From Clostridia bacterium (GTDB lineage: Bacteria > CBDUZB01 > JAGLHV01), in assembly GCA_030595925.1 (NCBI GenBank), contig JAUVLC010000015.1, forward strand, positions 1 through 35,071: 35,071 bases of DNA. The letters run 5' to 3'. Shown one piece after another: positions 2,704 to 35,071 of this stretch. The notes under the pieces are model-generated. The model did no database searches. It saw only the letters and a list, made by a program, of their open reading frames with translations, and was not told the DNA's origin. The position numbers and the translations under genes were made by a program. Each line of letters starts with the position of its first letter. Within the stretch, counting starts at the first letter, position 1.

Positions 2704-3465
2704 TTAGTTTGTTTTTTTCAATATTTCCCGGGTTAAATTAATATAAGCTTCCGCACCCCGGGAAGCCCGATCATAAAGAATTATTGGCTTTCCAAATCCG
2801 GGAGATTCGGAAAGTTTCACATTACGGGGAATAATTGTTTGATAAACCTTATCCTTAAAAAATTTCCTTACTTCCCCTATTACCTGCTCAGCTAAGTTAA
2901 CCCTCATATCTGCCATGGTTAACACAACCCCTTCTATCTGTAAACCTGAATTTAAACTTCTCTTTACTAATTCCACCGTATGAATTAATTGGCCTAATCC
3001 TTCCAGGGCATAGTACTCGCACTGAATGGGAATTAAGATTGATTCCGCTGCAGTTAAACTATTGATAGTTAATAGACCTAACGAAGGAGGACAATCTAAA
3101 ATAATAAATTTATAAACATCTTTCATTTTTTCCAAGGCCTTTTTCAATCTTGTCTCCCGGGATAAAACATTGACCAACTCTACTTCCGCACCAATAAGAT
3201 TCGGACTGGAAGGAATTAAATCCAGCCAATCAATATCCGTAGAAATGAGTACATCCTCTAAAGAGGCTTCTTCCAATAACAACTCATAAATACTTTTTTT
3301 TACCCTCCTTTTGTCTATTCCTACCCCACTGGTAGCATTTGCTTGTGGATCTCCGTCAATAAGTAGTGTTTCCTGCCCTTCGTCTGCCAGACACGCAGCA
3401 ACATTAACCGCTGTAGTCGTTTTACCTACTCCCCCTTTTTGATTGACAACTGCTATTATTTTCAT
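2704..3465 (-). CDS. parA: ParA/Soj chromosome-partitioning ATPase
   Basis: This 253-residue protein has the deviant Walker A motif KGGVGKTT (10-17), the switch region LLIDGDPQANAT (34-45), the Walker B-like FIILDCPPSLGLLTINSL, and a C-terminal block NVKLSESPGFGKPIILYDRASRGAEAY. All are typical of chromosomal Soj/ParA. There is no N-terminal DNA-binding extension, which matches the small chromosomal type rather than P1-plasmid ParA. It would bind DNA nonspecifically when ATP-bound and be stimulated by ParB sitting at parS. Two parS sites lie 1.8 and 3.9 kb upstream, but parB does not follow. The next gene downstream is a membrane protein with its own promoter. The ATG is preceded by GAGG at suitable spacing. 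Confidence 0.95.
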   Translation of the reverse strand: MKIIAVVNQKGGVGKTTTAVNVAACLADEGQETLLIDGDPQANATSGVGIDKRRVKKSIYELLLEEASLEDVLISTDIDWLDLIPSSPNLIGAEVELVNVLSRETRLKKALEKMKDVYKFIILDCPPSLGLLTINSLTAAESILIPIQCEYYALEGLGQLIHTVELVKRSLNSGLQIEGVVLTMADMRVNLAEQVIGEVRKFFKDKVYQTIIPRNVKLSESPGFGKPIILYDRASRGAEAYINLTREILKKTN

Positions 3466-3715: not shown

Positions 3716-5224
3716 TTATTCTACCTTATATATTTTTGCTGTCTTTCCTTCCAATATTACTGAAATCCCCCCTCTTTCCCATTTCATTTCATCCTGGAAA
3801 TCAAGCAAATTAATTAAATTTTTGTCCTGCATTTTTTCTCTTATCCGGGAAGGAATATTACTATTAGCTGCCACAGGAATAAATAATGGATGGGGCATTT
3901 TTTGAAGACCATTATTTATTACTATTACAATTATATTCCCTCGATATTCCCGCATAAAAGCATATACAAAATGATCGGAATAAAGAGTAAATTGATATCC
4001 CCATGCTAATGATTCATTTTCCTTTTTAATTTTAATCAATTGTTTTAAGTGTAAAAAAATTCCTTTTTGTTCCTGGCAATGGCTTAATGGTTCAAGCCCG
4101 GGTTGGTCACCAAAAATATTTTTCCAGGGCATGAATCTCCGATTGTCCGGATCTGCATAACCCTCCAATCCAATTTCCGTCCCATAATAAATTTGAGGAA
4201 TACCTCTATTAGTAAATAAAAAAGATAGAGCCAATTTGAATATTTTAAGAGCAAGCCATCGATCCCAATGCCCATAATAATCAAGAATTTCCGTCATAAA
4301 TCTTTTGGAAAGATCGTGATTATCTAATAAATTGACTAAACGGTTAGCATTGGTATAATAAGCATCCATATCCAGAATCCCTTCGGATTCATTATCATTA
4401 AGGCGGGGACGGGCAAGTTGAGTCATACCGGCATTATAAATAAAACTCTCTTTAATCTTATTGCACAAAGGAAAATTAAACAGCGTATCAAAATCATGAT
4501 CCTTTTGATATTGAGCAATTTTACCTACATCATATTCAAGATCCTCCCCAATAAGAGTAATATTGTGATATTTTCCTTTTACATAGGATTTAAAAAAATA
4601 CCAGAATTTTTTTTCCACATGTTTTACCGTATCCATACGAATACCATCTATGCCGGTTTCTTCTATCCAATCAACAATATTGTTTACAAAATAGTCCACC
4701 ACATCAACCTGATCATGGTCTAAATCCGGCAACCCTGCCAAACAACCCTCTATTTCATCTCCTGCCGGCCCTTGATTAAACCATTCATTTTTTATCTTTT
4801 TATCCGGATAATTGATATAATTTTCATTGTGATAACCCGTATGATTTACCACCATATCCAAAATAACCTTTATTTTTGCGTCATGTAATTGACTAACTAA
4901 TTCTTTGAGGTATTCTTTGCTCCCTTCTGCTAATTCCGGATTATGAGAATAGAGCTGCGAATCTACTTTTTCAAAATCTAATGCCCAATATCCATGATAG
5001 CTATCTGTTCCATAAAAATTTCCAATATTAAGATAAACCGGAGTAATCCATAAAGCAGTAATCCCCAAATTTTTTAAATAGGGAATTTTTGCTATTATAC
5101 CGGCAAAATCTCCTCCCTGATAGCGATAGAGATTATCTTTATCAACCCCTATGTTATTATGGGCATCCCCATCACAAAACCTATCGGTAAGGATAAAATA
5201 GATAATATCGTTTTGTTCAATCAT
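3716..5224 (-). CDS. GH13 alpha-amylase family enzyme, cytoplasmic
   Basis: The protein has 502 residues counted from the ATG at 5224. It carries the GH13 conserved regions in order: DMVVNHTGY (D123, N127, H128), GIDGIRMDTVKHV (nucleophile D198), LIGEDLEY (acid/base E227), and LVNLLDNHDLSKRF (D304). A C-terminal beta domain follows the barrel. There is no signal peptide, so it probably acts on cytoplasmic alpha-glucans such as maltodextrin, glycogen or trehalose-like sugars. The exact substrate cannot be told from sequence. An in-frame GTG at 5236 exists, but it falls inside the AAAGGTGG ribosome-binding site that serves the ATG 8 bases further on, so the ATG is preferred. A parS palindrome lies just upstream at 5273. 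The gene sits between rsmG and parA, places usually occupied by other partition or housekeeping genes. Confidence 0.9.
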   Translation of the reverse strand: MIEQNDIIYFILTDRFCDGDAHNNIGVDKDNLYRYQGGDFAGIIAKIPYLKNLGITALWITPVYLNIGNFYGTDSYHGYWALDFEKVDSQLYSHNPELAEGSKEYLKELVSQLHDAKIKVILDMVVNHTGYHNENYINYPDKKIKNEWFNQGPAGDEIEGCLAGLPDLDHDQVDVVDYFVNNIVDWIEETGIDGIRMDTVKHVEKKFWYFFKSYVKGKYHNITLIGEDLEYDVGKIAQYQKDHDFDTLFNFPLCNKIKESFIYNAGMTQLARPRLNDNESEGILDMDAYYTNANRLVNLLDNHDLSKRFMTEILDYYGHWDRWLALKIFKLALSFLFTNRGIPQIYYGTEIGLEGYADPDNRRFMPWKNIFGDQPGLEPLSHCQEQKGIFLHLKQLIKIKKENESLAWGYQFTLYSDHFVYAFMREYRGNIIVIVINNGLQKMPHPLFIPVAANSNIPSRIREKMQDKNLINLLDFQDEMKWERGGISVILEGKTAKIYKVE

Positions 5225-5272
5225 TTTTATTTCCACCTTTATTGTTATCTGTATTGAACACTTATCCTTAAA

Positions 5273-5288
5273 TGTTTCACGTGAAACA
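5273..5288. promoter_or_regulatory. parS: parS centromere-like site 1
   Basis: TGTTTCACGTGAAACA is a perfect 16-bp palindrome identical to the consensus parS bound by chromosomal ParB. It lies between the amylase start and the rsmG stop, close to parA. Confidence 0.95.
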
Positions 5289-5326
5289 TTTTCTTAACTG
5301 TACCCCCCTCGTATGTGGGATAAAGT

Positions 5327-6109
5327 CTATTTCATTGGCCTCTTGGAAGGCATCCCGGGTTTTCTGGGATATTTCCCCGGAGTAGGAAAAACCTTCTCAA
5401 TAACCACTAAACTCCTTTTTAATTCTATCTTTTTTAACTTAAGGTTTATTTTTTTTACATCTTTGACCTTCCCACCCAAAAGGTTAATCGCTTTTTCTGC
5501 TTCGTTTAATTCTTTTTTAACCACCGGTCCCTTTTGAGCTATCATTATACCATTTACTTTTACAAAAGGCAAACAATATTCCACCAAAAAAGATAGTTTC
5601 CCTACAGCACGGGAAATCACTATTTCATATTTTTCTCTATACTGCAAATCCCTTCCACAAATTTCTGCCCGATTATAAAGGATTAAAACATCCCTTAGTT
5701 GTAATTTTTCACAAATATGTTTTAAAAATAATGTTTTTTTTCTTGAACTCTCTAATAAAGTCAAGTTTATTTTTGGAACACAAATTTTAAGCGGTAATCC
5801 GGGAAATCCGGCCCCCGAACCAACATCTAAAACCCCACACGTTTTCCATAAATCTGTATCGTTAATTAAAGCAAAATCTTTTTCTGTCTTCCGTGACAAA
5901 AGATGAGGAAAACACAAAAAACAGGAAAGTGAATCAATAAAATGTTTAAAAATAATATCTTCATCCTGAACAATTGCGGTTAAATTAAATTGTTCATTCC
6001 ACTTTTTTAATTCTTCTAAATAGATTAAAAAGCTGTTTAATTGACCCGGATTAATTTTTATTCCTAATGAACTCAATCCTTCTTTAAATAAATTTTCTAT
6101 TTTTTTCAT
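5327..6109 (-). CDS. rsmG: 16S rRNA (guanine527-N7)-methyltransferase RsmG
   Basis: This 260-residue Rossmann-fold methyltransferase of the GidB/RsmG family modifies G527 of 16S rRNA (E. coli numbering), using S-adenosylmethionine. Visible motifs are WNEQFNLTAI near the N-terminus, the SAM-binding DVGSGAGFPGLPLKI, ESSRKKTLFLKH, and VISRAVGKLSFLVEYCLPFVKVNG. The protein is slightly longer than the usual 210-240 residues because of an insertion before the SAM motif (about residues 85-110) and a basic tail. The ATG has no obvious ribosome-binding site. In many bacteria rsmG lies directly beside parA/parB near oriC. Here an amylase gene and a parS site come between rsmG and parA. Confidence 0.95.
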   Translation of the reverse strand: MKKIENLFKEGLSSLGIKINPGQLNSFLIYLEELKKWNEQFNLTAIVQDEDIIFKHFIDSLSCFLCFPHLLSRKTEKDFALINDTDLWKTCGVLDVGSGAGFPGLPLKICVPKINLTLLESSRKKTLFLKHICEKLQLRDVLILYNRAEICGRDLQYREKYEIVISRAVGKLSFLVEYCLPFVKVNGIMIAQKGPVVKKELNEAEKAINLLGGKVKDVKKINLKLKKIELKRSLVVIEKVFPTPGKYPRKPGMPSKRPMK

Positions 6110-6335
6110 AAAATTAAATGGTTTTTTCGTAAATTCATAAATAAAATGGACGCCTCAAAAATAAAGGCAAAATATGTTTTGAACGACTTAGCAAATTTTA
6201 GCAGAAACAAGTATTTTCAAACCGCATTTTTTAAAACCTCAATTCAATCAGTTTAAACTTCCACCTCATATATCTGTTGTCTTTATTCCGTTGTCTATGG
6301 ACTATCGACTGTGGACTATGGACTTTTTTTGTCTT
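6110..6335. repeat. non-coding gap with family A tandem repeat, copy 2 (6292-6340)
   Basis: No gene is seen. At 6292-6340 there is GTCTATGGACTAT followed by CGACTGTGGACTATGGAC, a T run, and GTCTTTTAAC. This is the best copy of a 10-11 bp tandem motif. It runs into the last codon and stop of the patatin-like gene. The rest is AT-rich and I see nothing else in it. Confidence 0.6.
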
Positions 6336-7271
6336 TTAACTTTGTGCCTTATTATTTCTATCCCCTACCAAAAGTCTTTTTAAAAATGTTTTTTTTCGCA
6401 TTTTACTAATTAAAGATTTTATTTCTTCTATCTTTAAAGTTGCCTCATTTTCTCCCTGTTGAACACAAAAATTCGCTTTTTTAAAACTCATCCAGGAAAT
6501 ATTTTTTATCCTGGGACTAAGCACAAAATTCGCTTTCTTTAATTGCAAATCAGAAAGTTTTATCCCACTAATTTTATTTGCTCTAAAAATAATAGCTAAA
6601 CCATTATCTATACTGCTTATATGTCGTAACTTACTCCTCACATCTACCGCAATTACTATATCCGCTCCCAATTTAAAAGCCGCATCCACAGGGACAGTCT
6701 CTACCACGGCTCCATCCACTAACAATTTATCTTTCCAGCGTAAAGGAGGAAAAACCCCGGGAATAGTCATACTTGCCTGAACAGCTTCCCTTATTGGCCC
6801 CTGAGAAAAAGTAATTTCTTCTCCCGTACAAAGATCTGCGGCCACACAAACAAACGGAATTTTTGCGTCTTCTATATTCTTCTCGGAAAAAAGCACCTCT
6901 AAAATCTTTTCTATTTGTTTTTCTTCCAGGAGAGAATCTTTCTTTTTATACAAGTTATAATAAAGGTACAACTGCTTAATATAACTAATAAAACGATGAA
7001 AAGGCCTTATTTGAATCTTTTCATCTTGTTTTAAAAGATTGCTACTCAGCTCTCCGAATAAATCACTTTTTAAATTAGTTTGTATTTTATTTTCCAAGAA
7101 ATCAATATCCGGATTCAAGGCATAAAGCCCTCCGATCATTGCCCCCATACTTGTTCCGGCAATGATGTCAATGGGAATTTTATGCTGTTGAAAGACTTTT
7201 AAAATCCCCAAATGAGCAAATCCCCTTGCTCCACCGCCACCCAGGGCCAAACCAACCTTTAATTTCCGCAT
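6336..7271 (-). CDS. patatin-like phospholipase (RssA/YchK type)
   Basis: This 311-residue soluble protein has the patatin catalytic dyad. The oxyanion motif GGGGARGFAH lies at 11-20, the nucleophile elbow GTSMG carries S41, and the DGA motif carries D186 (LLVDGAVV). Members of this bacterial branch are predicted lipid acyl hydrolases, and several are of unknown physiological substrate. There is no signal peptide. The start is supported by AGGGTGA about 7 bases before the ATG. A parS site lies about 70 bases upstream. The stop codon overlaps the family A repeat. Assignment to the family is sure; the substrate is not. Confidence 0.9.
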   Translation of the reverse strand: MRKLKVGLALGGGGARGFAHLGILKVFQQHKIPIDIIAGTSMGAMIGGLYALNPDIDFLENKIQTNLKSDLFGELSSNLLKQDEKIQIRPFHRFISYIKQLYLYYNLYKKKDSLLEEKQIEKILEVLFSEKNIEDAKIPFVCVAADLCTGEEITFSQGPIREAVQASMTIPGVFPPLRWKDKLLVDGAVVETVPVDAAFKLGADIVIAVDVRSKLRHISSIDNGLAIIFRANKISGIKLSDLQLKKANFVLSPRIKNISWMSFKKANFCVQQGENEATLKIEEIKSLISKMRKKTFLKRLLVGDRNNKAQS

Positions 7272-7339
7272 ATTATTTCACCCTATTTAATCTACCGATT
7301 AAATATCCCCTTATATCAATTATAAAAATATTACCAAAT

Positions 7340-7355
7340 TGTTTCACGTGAAACA
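7340..7355. promoter_or_regulatory. parS: parS centromere-like site 2
   Basis: A second exact TGTTTCACGTGAAACA palindrome lies about 2.07 kb from the first, in the gap upstream of the patatin-like gene. Confidence 0.95.
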
Positions 7356-7502: not shown

Positions 7503-7525
7503 GTAGGGCAAACCTTTAGGTTTGC
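7503..7525. repeat. REP-like palindrome overlapping the RAYT stop
   Basis: GTAGGGCAAACC-TTTA-GGTTTGC is a further copy of the first REP unit. It overlaps the last codons and stop of the RAYT gene, so the gene end is part of the element. Confidence 0.7.
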
Positions 7526-7989
7526 GTTATATCAAACTCAAATGAGCCAAGAAAAGTATACTGTCGATAGTCATCTACTAATCCTTTTCTTACTGGATTA
7601 CCTAAAATATAATAAGCAACGCTCATCGTCTCTTCTTCTTTTCTTAGCAGATGTTCATAAAAATTAACCTGCCAAAGAGATTCCCCCTTATATTTTTTGT
7701 AGTAAAAACCTGTATGTTGTTTATATGAGGAAATAAATTGCTTCATATCAGAATGTAAATCTTTACCTTCTATTAAAATATGAAAATGATCAGGCATAAA
7801 ACAGTATACCCATATCTTAAATCCAAAAGACTTTGATTTTTCCCTTAAAATATTTATAAGCCATTTAACCAAAGATGTATCTCTAAATATTGGCAACTTA
7901 TTGAAAGTACATATTGTTATGAAATAACGATAATAACCTTTATAGTCAAAGTCTTTCAGCCGTATTCGTTTTTTATAATTTATCATCAT
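7516..7989 (-). CDS. REP-associated tyrosine transposase (RAYT, Y1/HUH family)
   Basis: This 157-residue protein of the IS200-like Y1 transposase superfamily has the HUH motif in FMPDHFHILIEG (H68, H70). A conserved GESLWQVNFYEHLLRKEEE segment has Y111 as the likely catalytic tyrosine, followed by VAYYILGNPVRKGLV. These are RAYT hallmarks. RAYTs act on single-stranded DNA and spread or maintain REP palindromes, and such palindromes flank the gene on both sides (7398-7453, 7503-7525, 8043-8065). The length is normal for a short RAYT and the reading frame is intact, so it may still work. It stands alone between the patatin-like gene and the purine permease. Assignment is from motifs plus context. 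Confidence 0.9.
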   Translation of the reverse strand: MMINYKKRIRLKDFDYKGYYRYFITICTFNKLPIFRDTSLVKWLINILREKSKSFGFKIWVYCFMPDHFHILIEGKDLHSDMKQFISSYKQHTGFYYKKYKGESLWQVNFYEHLLRKEEETMSVAYYILGNPVRKGLVDDYRQYTFLGSFEFDITQT

Positions 7990-14361: not shown

Positions 14362-17300
14362 TTATTCACCTAATACGCTTTCTTTTTCCAAAGAGTCTTT
14401 TTTCATTTTTATCTCTTCTTCCAATTCTTTTTCAATTTCTTCAAAACGGTTCATTTCTTTTTCTTCGATAAATTTCATTTTACTTATAGCTTCCCTGCTT
14501 TTTAAATCTATTAATTGCTCGAAAGGTATCTTATCCAATAATGCCTGTACTAAATAATATAACCTCATAATAACCTTCAGCATCAGATACTGTTTTTTTA
14601 AAGAGGTATAGGTATCTATTTCGTCAAACGCATGTTGATGCAAAAAATCTTCTTTTATTATTTTTCCCATTTCTAAAATCAATCTATCTCCCGCTGACAA
14701 CGCCTCTAATCCCACTAAACGCACGATTTCTTCCAGATTAGCTACTTTTTGTAAAATCTTTAGGGCTTCATCACGCATTTTTATAAAATCCGGGGCAACT
14801 TCTTTTTCCATATATTCACCAATATTATCCACATATAAAGAATAACTACGCAACCAGTTTATTGCCGGAAAATGACGCATATAAGCCAACCGGTCTTCCA
14901 ATCCCCAAAAAACTTTTACAATGCGCAACGTATTTTGTACTACCGGGTCAGCCAGGTCTCCTCCGGGAGGAGAAACTGCCCCGACAATAGAAAGAGAAGC
15001 TATTCGTTGGTCAGAACCTAAACAGGTTACTTTTCCTGCCCTTTCATAAAAAGAAGCGATTCTTGAAGCTAAATAGGCCGGATATCCTTCTTCTCCCGGC
15101 ATTTCTTCCAATCTTCCGGACATCTCCCTTAATGCTTCCGCCCAGCGGGAGGTTGAATCAGCCATTAAAGCTACCCGATATCCCATATCCCGAAAATATT
15201 CAGCCAGTGTAATCCCTGTATAAATAGAAGCTTCCCGTGCCGCTACCGGCATATTAGAGGTATTAGCAATTAAAATTGTTCTTTTAATTAATGATTCTCC
15301 GGTGAGAGGATCTTTCAAGGCCGGAAATTCTAATAAAACATCGGTCATTTCATTACCCCTCTCTCCACATCCCACATAAACAATAATATCAGCATCCGAC
15401 CATTTGGCTAATTGGTGAAGTACCACGGTATTTGAATAAATCATGGCAAAATCTCCACCTATAAAATTATGATCTCCCGGAACTTCTATATCATAAACCG
15501 TACAGGGAGTATTAATTTCTTTAATTTCAACGATTTTATCACAATAAATATGTTCCATATCATTTGTGGCAAATTTTATTAATTGAGAATTATTCATTAC
15601 CTGCGCAAATTTCCTAAACATCTTCTTGCTTATCAATTCTCCGGAAAGATAATTATGAATTTCCACCCCTTTTCCCTTTAATTTTTTATAGGGTCTTCCT
15701 GCCCGTTCATAAACAGACTTAATCAATGAAATTCCCATGGGAACAATATCAATGCAGGTATATTCTCTTTTTTTCAAGGCAAGATAGTCTTTAATCTTCT
15801 TGAATTTTGAAAGATTGTTCATTTTGCAAAAATTAAAAAAGCTTTTTATTTCTTCCCCACCTGAAACAAAAAGATAATATTGTTTAAATCCTTTATTGAC
15901 TTTTTCTTTTACTCTTGTTATTATTCCTAATCGCAAAAATAAATAAGCCAATCCTTTTTGCATTTCTTTTGAAGCAGTAGAATATTCAATTTCACCTTTT
16001 TCTTGATTAAAATATCCATCACAAACAAAATATGCACCGAGAAATGTTTTAATTATTGAGGGAGGACTTTTAAAAACAATTTTCGGAACAAAACAATTGC
16101 GTGATTTTTTATATTCCGGATAACCAAAATATTTCAATAATTTTGCAAGAATAGTGCTTTCCACGATTGAACATTTCACCTTATTGCATATAGTCCTTTT
16201 CCCTTTCAACCCAAAAAGATGCTCGATTAACTTCTCAAATAAATTCAACATTTTTTCATCATTATTGTAAAATCTTACACTATTTTGTTTAATCATTCCA
16301 TCACCCAACATCAATCCCAAAAAAGTAGCCATTTCTTCATTAAATTTCTCAGGAATCTTTACTTTTTTACTTCCCCTCTCTCCTTTAATATTTTTTATTT
16401 TGGGAAATTTTTTTCTACTTGTTAAATAAAGTTTTTCTACAAACTTTACCGTGGGTCGATTCTTTTTCAAAAAATACCCAATTAACATATCGTAAGAAAT
16501 ATTTAATTGGCTCGCTACTCCCTTTTTGTTTTTAGTTTTTGAAGCAAGTTTATTAATCAGGAAAGGGATTTTTTCTATGATTTCCCTCTCCACAATTCTT
16601 TGATTCGGAAAAATTTTTTTAATCGATAGCCCCTGAATTTTACCTTTAATATCTATTCTCCTCGGAATTGAAAGATAATCACCAACTTTTAAATCTTTTG
16701 CCTCTTTATAATCAATATCCAAATTACCATTAAATTTAGGAAGTTTATGTATGGGAGTAACTTTTGCAACCCTTCCTGTACGTGTTTTAATTTTAATTAT
16801 TTTATTGGTCTTCCCTTTATAAACCACACTAACTTTACTTTTACTAAACCCTCTCGCTGAACCGGAAAAAACCTCAAAAGGACTTGATAATATTGTGTAT
16901 TCTTCCCCAAAAGTCTTTACTTTCTTTCCTTTCAACTCATTTTCAAGAAAAATATCTTTCATTGATTTTAAACAACCATCGGCAAGAAGTACCGGTGTAT
17001 CCCCTGTTACACATTTTCCACTTCCAAAGGGTCCCGGGATACAAGCCGTTCCTCCCTTGGCTATGGGAAAAAAAGTATCGATTACCCGCGTACCGGTAAT
17101 TAACGGTTCCTCTAAAGTAAGTTTTTTCAGGTAAGGCCGTGCTTGCCGTACCGGCCAATGCTGTAACATACAAAGTTTTTTTATTTGTTTTTCCCCTTCA
17201 ATACTTAATTCTGCAATAGTATCTTCTACTGTGAATTCCCCAGCAAAAATATTTTTTATCGTTCCCTCCACCCCGGGAGGAACCATAATCTTATGCATTA

Positions 17301-17727
17301 CTAATTCGGTTTCTTTCACTTCTCCTAAAATATCTCCTTCAGTAACCACTTCCCCTTTTTTGACCTTCGGAACAAATTTCCATTTTTTCTCCCGATTAAT
17401 TTTGGGTAAATCTATCCCCCGGGTAATATAATCCCCTACTTTTTGACTAATTGTCTCTAACGGCCGTTGAATCCCGTCATAAATGGAAGTAACCAGTCCC
17501 GGACCCAATTCCACTGACAGGGGCTGTCCCGTAGCAACAACAATCTCTCCCGGCCCTATTCCTGTAGTTTCTTCGTAAACTTGAATGGAAACATGGTCAC
17601 CTTTTAACTCCACTACTTCCCCGATTAACCCTTCCTCCCCAACCCGAACTACTTCATACATCTTTACCCCCGGCAAATCAGTAGCTACGACCAGAGGACC
17701 TGATACTTTTATTATTTTTCCCTTCAT
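14362..17727 (-). CDS. atpA: V/A-type ATPase catalytic subunit A, interrupted by an intein
   Basis: This 1121-residue precursor consists of an N-extein (1-238), an intein (239-766) and a C-extein (767-1121). The spliced product would be 593 residues, the usual size of subunit A. The N-extein has the barrel domain, the long non-homologous insert (about 110-190) and PGPFGSGK. The C-extein begins TVVLHQLAKWSDADIIVYVG, followed by CGERGNEM, then SNMPVAAREASIYTG, DSTSRWAEALRE and PGEEGYPAYL. Joining the two restores GPFGSGKT, the P-loop that binds ATP, so the enzyme would be dead without splicing. Subunit A hydrolyses or makes ATP in the A3B3 ring. It follows subunit F by 35 bases. Confidence 0.97.
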   Translation of the reverse strand: MKGKIIKVSGPLVVATDLPGVKMYEVVRVGEEGLIGEVVELKGDHVSIQVYEETTGIGPGEIVVATGQPLSVELGPGLVTSIYDGIQRPLETISQKVGDYITRGIDLPKINREKKWKFVPKVKKGEVVTEGDILGEVKETELVMHKIMVPPGVEGTIKNIFAGEFTVEDTIAELSIEGEKQIKKLCMLQHWPVRQARPYLKKLTLEEPLITGTRVIDTFFPIAKGGTACIPGPFGSGKCVTGDTPVLLADGCLKSMKDIFLENELKGKKVKTFGEEYTILSSPFEVFSGSARGFSKSKVSVVYKGKTNKIIKIKTRTGRVAKVTPIHKLPKFNGNLDIDYKEAKDLKVGDYLSIPRRIDIKGKIQGLSIKKIFPNQRIVEREIIEKIPFLINKLASKTKNKKGVASQLNISYDMLIGYFLKKNRPTVKFVEKLYLTSRKKFPKIKNIKGERGSKKVKIPEKFNEEMATFLGLMLGDGMIKQNSVRFYNNDEKMLNLFEKLIEHLFGLKGKRTICNKVKCSIVESTILAKLLKYFGYPEYKKSRNCFVPKIVFKSPPSIIKTFLGAYFVCDGYFNQEKGEIEYSTASKEMQKGLAYLFLRLGIITRVKEKVNKGFKQYYLFVSGGEEIKSFFNFCKMNNLSKFKKIKDYLALKKREYTCIDIVPMGISLIKSVYERAGRPYKKLKGKGVEIHNYLSGELISKKMFRKFAQVMNNSQLIKFATNDMEHIYCDKIVEIKEINTPCTVYDIEVPGDHNFIGGDFAMIYSNTVVLHQLAKWSDADIIVYVGCGERGNEMTDVLLEFPALKDPLTGESLIKRTILIANTSNMPVAAREASIYTGITLAEYFRDMGYRVALMADSTSRWAEALREMSGRLEEMPGEEGYPAYLASRIASFYERAGKVTCLGSDQRIASLSIVGAVSPPGGDLADPVVQNTLRIVKVFWGLEDRLAYMRHFPAINWLRSYSLYVDNIGEYMEKEVAPDFIKMRDEALKILQKVANLEEIVRLVGLEALSAGDRLILEMGKIIKEDFLHQHAFDEIDTYTSLKKQYLMLKVIMRLYYLVQALLDKIPFEQLIDLKSREAISKMKFIEEKEMNRFEEIEKELEEEIKMKKDSLEKESVLGE
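15430..17013 (-). mobile_element. 528-residue LAGLIDADG intein in the subunit A P-loop (VMA-b site)
   Basis: The intein runs from C1 to N528, between GPFGSGK and T. Block A is CVTGDTPVLLADG (1-13). Block B is VAKVTPIHKL, with T86 and H89. The two LAGLIDADG helices are TFLGLMLGDGMI (D238) and TFLGAYFVCDGYF (D332), so both homing endonuclease acidic residues remain. Block F is VYDIEVPGDHNFIGG, with H515. Block G is MIYSN followed by the +1 T. The penultimate residue is serine (S527) instead of the usual histidine. A helix-turn-helix-like stretch (KGVASQLNISYDMLIGYFLK, 164-183) may help recognise DNA. The frame is open throughout. The site matches the archaeal VMA-b position, not the yeast VMA1 site before CGERGNEM. 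Confidence 0.95.
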
Positions 17728-26998: not shown

Positions 26999-27086
26999 GC
27001 ATCTCACGGCAAAACCAAACCTATAAATACCAAGTAGGAATACTTTTAATTATAAGATTGGTTCTATCAGGAGGATAATTATCTTG

Positions 27087-27746
27087 ATGAAGGGTTTAGA
27101 AATAACAGGAAGAACAGTAGAAGAAGCAATCCAAAAAGGCTTAAAGAAATTAGGATTGGACCACAAAGAAGTAGAAATAAAAATTCTTGACGAAGGGAAA
27201 GCAGGTCTGTTTGGATTAATGGGAGCCAGTCCCGCAAAAGTAAAGATTTCCCCAAAAAATCCATCTGCTCAAAATACTCCGAATAACATATCTCCCGTTT
27301 CAGGTGTGCAAGCAAAAAAATTTTTGGAGGAAATTTTATGCCTTATGGGGATTGATAATAAAGTGGAATCTTTCCTTCAGGACGAACAATTGGTTTTAAA
27401 TATAAAAACCGCCGACAGTGCCCTTTTAATTGAAAAAAACCCTCCCCCGCTGAATTCACTACAACTTTTACTTAACTTAATTGTAGCAAAAACATATCAA
27501 CAAAAAATTATTCTGGATACAGAAAATTATCGTAAATGCCAAAAGGAAAAATTTATGACTTTAGCTAAAAATTCTGCCGAAAAAGTAAAAAAAACAAAGA
27601 AAGAAATAATGTTAGAGCCTTTGCCTCCCCAGGAAAGAAAAATAATTCACTTAGCCCTTCAATCCGATCCCAATGTACAAACTGCATCAAAAGGAGAAGG
27701 ATCTCATCGCAGAATTATAATTAGCTTAAAAAACAATACAATATAA
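27087..27746 (+). CDS. khpB: KhpB/Jag RNA-binding protein (Jag_N, KH, R3H)
   Basis: The protein has 219 residues from the ATG at 27087. A TTG at 27084 is also possible, and the AGGAGG at 27069 fits either start. Jag_N: EITGRTVEEAIQKGLKKLGL and the GKAGLFGLMGASPAKVKI block. Middle KH-like region: about 75-135. R3H: LPPQERKIIHLALQ followed by VQTASKGEGSHRRIIISL. KhpB/Jag binds RNA and is tied to cell-wall and cell-shape control in several bacteria. The KH region reads ALLIEKNPPPLNSLQLLLNL instead of the usual IGK.G..L, so the GxxG loop needed for RNA contact is missing. It usually follows yidC, but here it heads its own transcription unit. Confidence 0.9.
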   Translation: MKGLEITGRTVEEAIQKGLKKLGLDHKEVEIKILDEGKAGLFGLMGASPAKVKISPKNPSAQNTPNNISPVSGVQAKKFLEEILCLMGIDNKVESFLQDEQLVLNIKTADSALLIEKNPPPLNSLQLLLNLIVAKTYQQKIILDTENYRKCQKEKFMTLAKNSAEKVKKTKKEIMLEPLPPQERKIIHLALQSDPNVQTASKGEGSHRRIIISLKNNTI

Positions 27747-27795
27747 ACTGGTTTCAAAATTATTACTCATTTATTTTCTAAACAAGGATAGCTTT

Positions 27796-29202
27796 ATGTT
27801 TAATGATGCCATCGCTGCTATTTCCACCCCTCCGGGTGAAGGAGGTATCGGGATTGTTCGTTTAAGCGGAAAAAGTGTGATTTCCCGGGTCGAAGAAATC
27901 TTTAAATCGTGTAAGGAAAAATCGCTTTCTACTGTTCCCAGCCACACTGTTCATTATGGATATATTTATCCTGACCAAAAAGGAAAAGGAAATGCAATAG
28001 ATCAAACCCTAGTCACAATAATGCGTGCACCGCACACCTATACAGGGGAAGATATTGTTGAAATTTCCTGCCACGGGGGAATTATCCCGTTAAGGAAAAT
28101 ATTAGAGGCCTGCTTAAAAAAGGGTTTACGTTTAGCTCAACCGGGAGAGTTTACCAAAAGGGCTTTCCTTAACGGACGAATAGACTTGATTCAAGCAGAA
28201 GCAGTATGTGATATCATCCGGGCAAAAACCGAACTTGCCCTTTCCTCTGCAATAAAACAATTGAAAGGCAATTTATCTATTAGAATAAATCCTCTCTGGC
28301 AAAAAATATTTGATTTAGTTTCTCATTTAGAAGCAACTTTAGATTTTACAGACGAAGATATTCCTCAAATAAACACCGGAGAAATGTTAAAAAAAATAGA
28401 TTTTATTTTGACTCAAATTCAGGATTTAATTAATACCAGTTCTACCGGAGAAATTTTGAGTAACGGGTTAAAAGCAACATTTATAGGAAAACCCAATGTA
28501 GGAAAATCTTCTTTATTAAATGCCATTCTCCAGAATGAACAGGCAATAGTTTCTTCTACGCCCGGAACTACGAGAGACCTCATCGAAAAAGAAATAAATA
28601 TCTCAGGATTACTGGTGAAAATTACCGATACGGCCGGAATAAAAACTTCCGGACAAAATGATATTGAAGAAAAAAGCATCACTCAAAGCAAAAAAGCAAT
28701 TTCTTCTGCTGATTTAATCCTGTTTGTTCTGGATTACTCGCAAAATTTAACCAAAGAAGATTTTTCCATTATTTCTGCCTTATCGCAACATTCGCGAGAC
28801 AAAAAAATTATTGTTATTTTAAATAAGAGTGATTTAAAACAAAAACTCGTTGAAGAAAAAATAAAAAAATTATTCTCTTTTTCCCCTTTGATAATAAAAA
28901 CTTCTGCTACCCGGCTAACCGGAATAAAAGAACTTCAGGACCTTATCCATTCCCTATATATCAAAGGGGATATTAATGTAGGAGAAAAAACTTTAGTTAC
29001 TAATATACGCCATAAAAATATTCTCCTACTAACAGAAAAATCCTTGAAATTAGCCCGGGCTTCTCTTAACCTGGGACAATCTGAAGAATTTATTAGTATG
29101 GATTTACGAAATGCCTTAAATTCCTTAGGCGAATTGACCGGAAAAAATGCATCTCCAGATCTTCTGGATAAAATTTTTTCTACCTTTTGTATTGGTAAAT
29201 AA
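27796..29202 (+). CDS. mnmE: tRNA modification GTPase MnmE (TrmE)
   Basis: This 468-residue protein is full length. The N-terminal domain starts MFNDAIAAISTPPGEGGIGI and contains HGG and PGEFTKRAFLNGRIDL. A helical domain and an inserted G domain follow, with the P-loop GKPNVGKSSL, DTAG and NKSD. The protein ends in FCIGK, the C-x-G-K motif needed for activity. MnmE, with MnmG, makes the 5-carboxymethylaminomethyl-type modification at wobble U34 of some tRNAs. mnmG, its usual neighbour, is not in the window. The start is supported by AAGGA. The gene follows khpB by about 50 bases, as in many bacteria, and is probably transcribed with it. Confidence 0.97.
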   Translation: MFNDAIAAISTPPGEGGIGIVRLSGKSVISRVEEIFKSCKEKSLSTVPSHTVHYGYIYPDQKGKGNAIDQTLVTIMRAPHTYTGEDIVEISCHGGIIPLRKILEACLKKGLRLAQPGEFTKRAFLNGRIDLIQAEAVCDIIRAKTELALSSAIKQLKGNLSIRINPLWQKIFDLVSHLEATLDFTDEDIPQINTGEMLKKIDFILTQIQDLINTSSTGEILSNGLKATFIGKPNVGKSSLLNAILQNEQAIVSSTPGTTRDLIEKEINISGLLVKITDTAGIKTSGQNDIEEKSITQSKKAISSADLILFVLDYSQNLTKEDFSIISALSQHSRDKKIIVILNKSDLKQKLVEEKIKKLFSFSPLIIKTSATRLTGIKELQDLIHSLYIKGDINVGEKTLVTNIRHKNILLLTEKSLKLARASLNLGQSEEFISMDLRNALNSLGELTGKNASPDLLDKIFSTFCIGK

Positions 29203-34011: not shown

Positions 34012-35071
34012 TCATTGAATAAAATCTTCCCCAATAATTATTGAAATATCTTCCAAAGGAAAATTCTCTTTTTGAGATATTATTTTATCACAGTTTATTA
34101 TTTTAGCTATCTTCCCGGCCAGAAAAAAATTTCCTGCCTTATCAATAACGACAGTACATTCTTCCAATGTTGCATAATTCCCCCAACGAACAACATCCAT
34201 TCCTGCATATTTAAGCTTTGTTCTCATCTCCCGGGCCATCCCTTTGATCCCGGCAGCATTCCATACAGCTATTGCCGGAAGTCTTTTTCCTACCTTTGTT
34301 TCTCTATTCCCAGGAGAAAAAATTACCTCTACCATTTGACCCACTTTTTCTTTATCCATTATCCAATAATAAGGTTTCCTTTCCCTCAACGTTCCCGGTA
34401 AGTTTTGAAAACGTATATTTCCAAGGGAAACTTTTTTTATCTCATAACACATTGCCAATATATCCCCTAAAGTAAGATTAGTAACCATGTTTTCTTTTAT
34501 TATTTGTGGAATTTCAAAAAGATTCGGAACCCATTTGAATTTTTTTATCATTTCTTTTAGCAAATTTTGCTGACGAACTAATCTCTGATAATCTCCTTCT
34601 TCTCTCTGATAAAAATCTTCCAGAAACTCTTTTCCTCCTAAGATAACATGCTTTTTCCCTACCCTTTTTATTCCTCCTAATAAATCAATTACTCTTATAA
34701 ATTCCTCTGTTTCTATCTGCATATAAAAAGGAATTGTTATTTTTAAGATTTCTTCGACTTTCTTTTTCAAGGCCCGGACTGCTTTTTTTCTGTCTTTTTC
34801 ATCCCGGCAAATATTTGAATAAATAGTCCCCAGTTTACCTTTTTTTAAAGAAGATTTTCTAATCTTCGTAGCAGAAGGAATAGTTACTACATCCAAAAAA
34901 CGTCTTACCGGATAATAACTTAATAATAAAACGGTCCCGGAATATTCAGAGCGTTTTTCCGAATTACATTCTAAAAGAAGCAAATTTATTCGCTCTCCTC
35001 TGTGAATATTTCTCACTATTTTGCTTTGTCCGTTCAAAAATAAAGAAAAAATTATCAAAACCAAAATACTT
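34012..35071 (-). CDS. LCP (LytR-CpsA-Psr) family protein with LytR_C domain, 5' end cut by window
   Basis: At least 350 residues are visible. The frame remains open to the window edge, so the true start is probably outside; the first in-window start is a TTG at 35064. An LCP-like domain covers about 20-245, with FIRVIDLLGGIKRV and EGDYQRLVRQQNLLKEMIKKF. A LytR_C domain (about 265-335) has AIAVWNAAGIKGMAREMRTKLKYAGMDVVRWG. LCP enzymes attach glycopolymers to peptidoglycan outside the membrane. Here the usual IPRDT-type motif reads TIPSATKI, so the arginine and aspartate are missing. The acidic residue before it (normally RSD) is replaced by SEYSG. Activity is doubtful; the role could be structural or regulatory. 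rsfS follows 59 bases later. Confidence 0.75.
   Translation of the reverse strand, partial: SILVLIIFSLFLNGQSKIVRNIHRGERINLLLLECNSEKRSEYSGTVLLLSYYPVRRFLDVVTIPSATKIRKSSLKKGKLGTIYSNICRDEKDRKKAVRALKKKVEEILKITIPFYMQIETEEFIRVIDLLGGIKRVGKKHVILGGKEFLEDFYQREEGDYQRLVRQQNLLKEMIKKFKWVPNLFEIPQIIKENMVTNLTLGDILAMCYEIKKVSLGNIRFQNLPGTLRERKPYYWIMDKEKVGQMVEVIFSPGNRETKVGKRLPAIAVWNAAGIKGMAREMRTKLKYAGMDVVRWGNYATLEECTVVIDKAGNFFLAGKIAKIINCDKIISQKENFPLEDISIIIGEDFIQ

Follow-up and report, generated by a model that had tools for sequence, protein, structure and literature searches.

Gene content of the window

The window analyzed here, 35,071 bp of DNA from a Clostridia bacterium, is the complete contig C148 of a fragmented assembly (G000; 2,596,137 bases in 193 contigs, 97% complete). 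Its left end is occupied by an interspersed repeat (positions 1 to 169), which has 50 matches in the genome and contains no parB coding sequence. The repeat is followed, all on the minus strand, by a gene for a DUF3467 protein (166 to 462; PF11950, 6.7e-29), a gene for a GAF/HD-GYP-type protein (497 to 2125) and parA (2704 to 3465), which encodes a chromosome-partition ATPase of 253 amino acids (AAA_31, PF13614, 2.3e-69). An alpha-amylase-family gene (3716 to 5236; PF00128, 4.2e-48), rsmG, or gidB (5327 to 6109; TIGR00138, 2.2e-49), and a patatin-like phospholipase gene (6336 to 7271; PF01734, 1.7e-34) lie farther to the right on the same strand. The pair jag-mnmE, which belongs to the conserved origin-region gene set, is located on the plus strand (27084 to 29202), and the end of an LCP/LytR gene (34361 to 35071, minus strand) forms the right end of the contig.

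Two genomes of the same genus (G001 and G002), referred to as sister genomes below, were available for comparison; all other relatives were no closer than the domain level. The ParA proteins of the window and G002 are 96% identical, with a dN/dS ratio of approximately 0.06; parA is evidently under strong constraint.

The gene for V-type ATPase subunit A (14362 to 17727) is interrupted by an intein that includes a LAGLIDADG endonuclease domain, and its orthologue in G002 is uninterrupted. A gene for a REP-associated tyrosine transposase (NF047646) is located at 7516 to 7989, and the short interspersed repeats with around 50 genomic matches may be the partners of this transposase.

parS sites

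A motif search of the whole window detected the exact parS sequence TGTTTCACGTGAAACA at 5273 to 5288 and at 7340 to 7355, and no further parS-like matches with up to three mismatches were found elsewhere in the window. Shuffled versions of the window contained a mean of 0.14 parS matches, and two matches were found in none of 100 shuffles. In the whole assembly, the two copies in the window were the only parS matches at up to two mismatches, and a control pattern gave no matches in the same search. The two exact sites reported in a preliminary description of this DNA are thus real and unique in the genome at that threshold, and the genome-wide check for further copies that it proposed yielded none.

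The first site, an exact 16-bp palindrome, lies 1.8 kb from parA, with rsmG on one side and the alpha-amylase-family gene on the other. The second is also exact, is found upstream of the patatin-like gene and just before the transposase gene, and extends into a 22-bp palindrome, AATTGTTTCACGTGAAACAATT. An extended context, AAWTGTTTCACGTGAAACAWTTTCYTAAC, is common to both sites (family D7). The pair was described as bracketing rsmG and most of the patatin-like gene; this is correct for rsmG, but the patatin-like gene is enclosed as a whole. The second site is kept in G002, where it is likewise located upstream of the patatin-like gene (L032:8562-8577). Since rsmG was not found in either sister assembly, the comparison with the sister genomes covers the second site only.

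It is extremely improbable that the palindromes are chance matches or the sites of another regulator rather than parS. No evidence favoring such a reading was found, and the exact 16-mer occurs twice, against approximately 0.0008 exact copies expected from the base composition across the whole assembly. The conservation of the site in G002 also argues against it, as does a comparison set of 20 regions from other lineages that contain an exact or near-exact parS; 18 of these have the motif beside mnmE, rsmG, parA or parB.

Pairs of parS sites 1.9 to 2.0 kb apart recur in several other genomes. Where mnmE, rsmG or both adjoin the sites, this spacing corresponds to the length of one intervening gene, probably mnmG.

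Missing parB and contig ends

The preliminary description regarded parA as an orphan and predicted a parB gene unlinked to it. The window indeed contains a ParA-type ATPase gene without parB. Moreover, no ParB was detected in the 193 contigs of the assembly with PF02195, TIGR00180 or the G002 ParB as the query at E values up to 10, and positions 1 to 165 of the window, which consist of the repeat only, contain no ParB start in three frames. The proposed genome-wide search therefore gave no parB in this assembly, but a canonical ParB is present in both sister genomes.

The gene run in G002 (contig C21) consists of parA, a 149-amino-acid open reading frame, HD-GYP (L031), DUF3467, parB and a lipoprotein gene, which, judged by eye, is presumably LPP20-like. 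In G002, 2.6 kb separate parB from the end of parA, and parB directly follows the DUF3467 gene. The run in G001 (contig C382) consists of HD-GYP, DUF3467, parB, the LPP20-like lipoprotein gene and a 463-amino-acid gene, and continues onward. The spacing between DUF3467 and parB is 44 to 54 bp in both sister genomes. The order in the window matches that of G002, with parA, HD-GYP and DUF3467 followed by the contig end. Because the window is a whole contig, the lack of parB within it says nothing about the sequence to the left of base 1, and the place of parB in the sister genomes falls off the contig. To see whether DUF3467 also separates parA from parB in other lineages, the 20 comparison regions were searched, and no DUF3467 match was found in them.

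The 463-amino-acid gene and three further neighbors on the parB side are located on another contig of the assembly, C92. This contig breaks off at a group II intron (Rfam RF02005), 6 bp past the intron's 5' end. The intron piece at this contig end (L052:5131-5391) apparently leaves no room for an encoded protein.

Both parB and the adjoining LPP20 gene are absent from the assembly, and the stretch that should contain them lies between contig ends formed by a repeat and a mobile element. This combination is best explained by an assembly gap. The apparent orphan parA with an unlinked parB is very probably an effect of the assembly; parB is presumed to be present in this strain and would most likely be located in the unassembled gap between C148 and C92, just past the end of the window.

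The empty searches of this genome, with two protein families and one sister protein as queries, could also suggest that the strain truly lost parB or carries a disrupted copy, perhaps owing to the group II intron or the repeat at the two contig ends, and that parA and parS now lack their reader. The mobile elements that flank the missing stretch on either side would be consistent with such an event. However, the LPP20 gene is missing too, as a gap predicts, and the assembly is 97% complete and broken into 193 contigs. The two parS copies are intact, ParA is strongly conserved, and both sister genomes have parB. The loss of parB is accordingly considered very unlikely and was set aside, since the position of parB in both sister genomes lies beyond the contig end. 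There is a similarly slight chance that mobile-element activity removed parB while ParA and the intact parS sites persist, the sites being read by another protein or decaying.

A parB gene located elsewhere on the chromosome is even less probable than its loss. Such a location would fit with the lack of parB next to parA in the window, but no ParB was found on any other contig of the assembly. The sister genomes also speak against the prediction: in G002, parA and parB share one gene run, and in G001, parB comes straight after HD-GYP-DUF3467.

Position relative to the origin of replication

The best DnaA match in the assembly is located on contig C175. On this contig, gyrB-dnaN-dnaA is followed by two exact DnaA boxes, which lie on the upstream side of dnaA, and then by rpmH-rnpA-yidD-yidC leading away; rnpA was assigned by Pfam, and rpmH, yidD and yidC are presumed assignments made by eye from the sequences. 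The GC skew, computed on this contig, switches sign at the gyrB-dnaN-dnaA/rpmH-rnpA-yidC region. The contig runs on to proA-nadD-LCP (proA and nadD presumably, by eye), and its LCP gene (C175:28631-29341) overlaps the right end of the window with 96.3% identity over 711 bp. A single contig of G002 (C324) carries DUF502-MFS-proA-nadD-LCP-rsfS-argS-rsmI-mnmE-jag-V-ATPase and bridges C175 and the window, with jag-mnmE colinear; the contigs of G001 agree with this order. The claim that the window is origin proximal is therefore supported by synteny and by the 711-bp overlap with the contig carrying oriC, and the suggested searches for dnaA and a skew switch were both positive on that contig.

Past the overlap, C175 diverges into unrelated sequence with a methyltransferase-like open reading frame. 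Since the overlap is 96.3% rather than 100% identical and C175 diverges beyond it, the join of the two contigs rests mainly on synteny; strain mixture, a misjoin or a partial duplication might each account for the imperfect overlap. When the pieces are added across C175 and C148, oriC is separated from the parS sites by about 38.8 and 40.9 kb, approximately 1.5% of the 2.6-Mb genome, so that an oriC-parS distance of about 39 to 41 kb is estimated.

Two additional large DnaA-type ATPases, of 709 amino acids (C180; L082:3233-5362) and 494 amino acids (C78; L083:4200-5684), are encoded in this genome, and similar matches occur in both sister genomes. A DnaA DNA-binding domain was not detected in either protein. 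The 494-amino-acid protein has an N-terminal MshEN domain, and its gene adjoins one for a DUF4388 (PATAN) protein, with what are presumably, as judged by eye, MglA-type GTPase and roadblock genes beside it.

Sister ParB proteins and the proposed partition system

The sister ParB proteins match TIGR00180 (1.3e-59 in G001 and 9.6e-58 in G002) and contain the ParB_N, HTH_ParB and ParB_C domains. The nearest solved structures are those of ParB/Spo0J (E value of 7.5e-65). The sister proteins carry the GERRWRA and ENIQR motifs (CTP binding) and, in a gap-free alignment, R and G where the Caulobacter protein has R173 and G201. These two residues are invariant among ParB orthologues and distinguish ParB from Noc, and RXXG residues mark parS-specific ParBs (PMC7383237). 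The motifs and the R and G residues of the sister proteins fit this pattern, indicating that they are canonical ParBs. An SMC gene is present in all three genomes.

The analysis shows the parS sites, parA, the SMC gene, the distance to oriC by contig linkage and the sister parB following DUF3467. With a probability of roughly 93%, the two sites are origin-proximal parS centromeres of a canonical chromosomal ParABS-SMC system beside rsmG-parA, whose parB lies in the gap between C148 and C92. Many phyla have such an arrangement. By the established mechanism, CTP-bound ParB would load at each parS, slide and spread over the neighboring DNA. The parS-bound, spreading ParB would recruit SMC, and stimulation of the ParA ATPase by ParB would move the origin region to the daughter cells. 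The suggested spreading of ParB over rsmG and the patatin-like gene would be generic ParB biology.

These results document a standard ParABS-SMC system, together with its oriC, for an uncultured genus. They also indicate that in metagenome assemblies parA can look orphaned as an artifact of a contig end and that parB is worth seeking across an assembly gap before it is called unlinked or lost.

Comparison with known systems

The Noc/NBS nucleoid occlusion system resembles the present one in that Noc belongs to a paralogue family of ParB and binds a similar palindrome. In contrast, the site here is parS and not a Noc site. Identity with Noc, for which Q and R would be expected at ParB positions 173 and 201, was rejected, as the sister ParBs carry R and G.

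In chromosomal ParABS systems, par operons and most parS sites are located in the origin domain (PMC7022226, PMC7333895). The system described here resembles those of Bacillus subtilis (Spo0J/Soj-parS), Caulobacter and Myxococcus in its parS sequence, the ParA family, the presence of SMC and the proximity to rsmG and oriC, as well as in the domains, motifs and specificity residues of the sister ParBs. Unlike in those systems, around 40 kb lie between oriC and rsmG-parA, a stretch that includes a V-type ATPase operon among other genes, and in this genus a distance of about 2.6 kb with three genes (the small open reading frame, HD-GYP and DUF3467) separates parA from parB. The ParABS-SMC system of this genome is most likely an ordinary one; the three genes between parA and parB are its only unusual trait and leave the expected mechanism unaltered.
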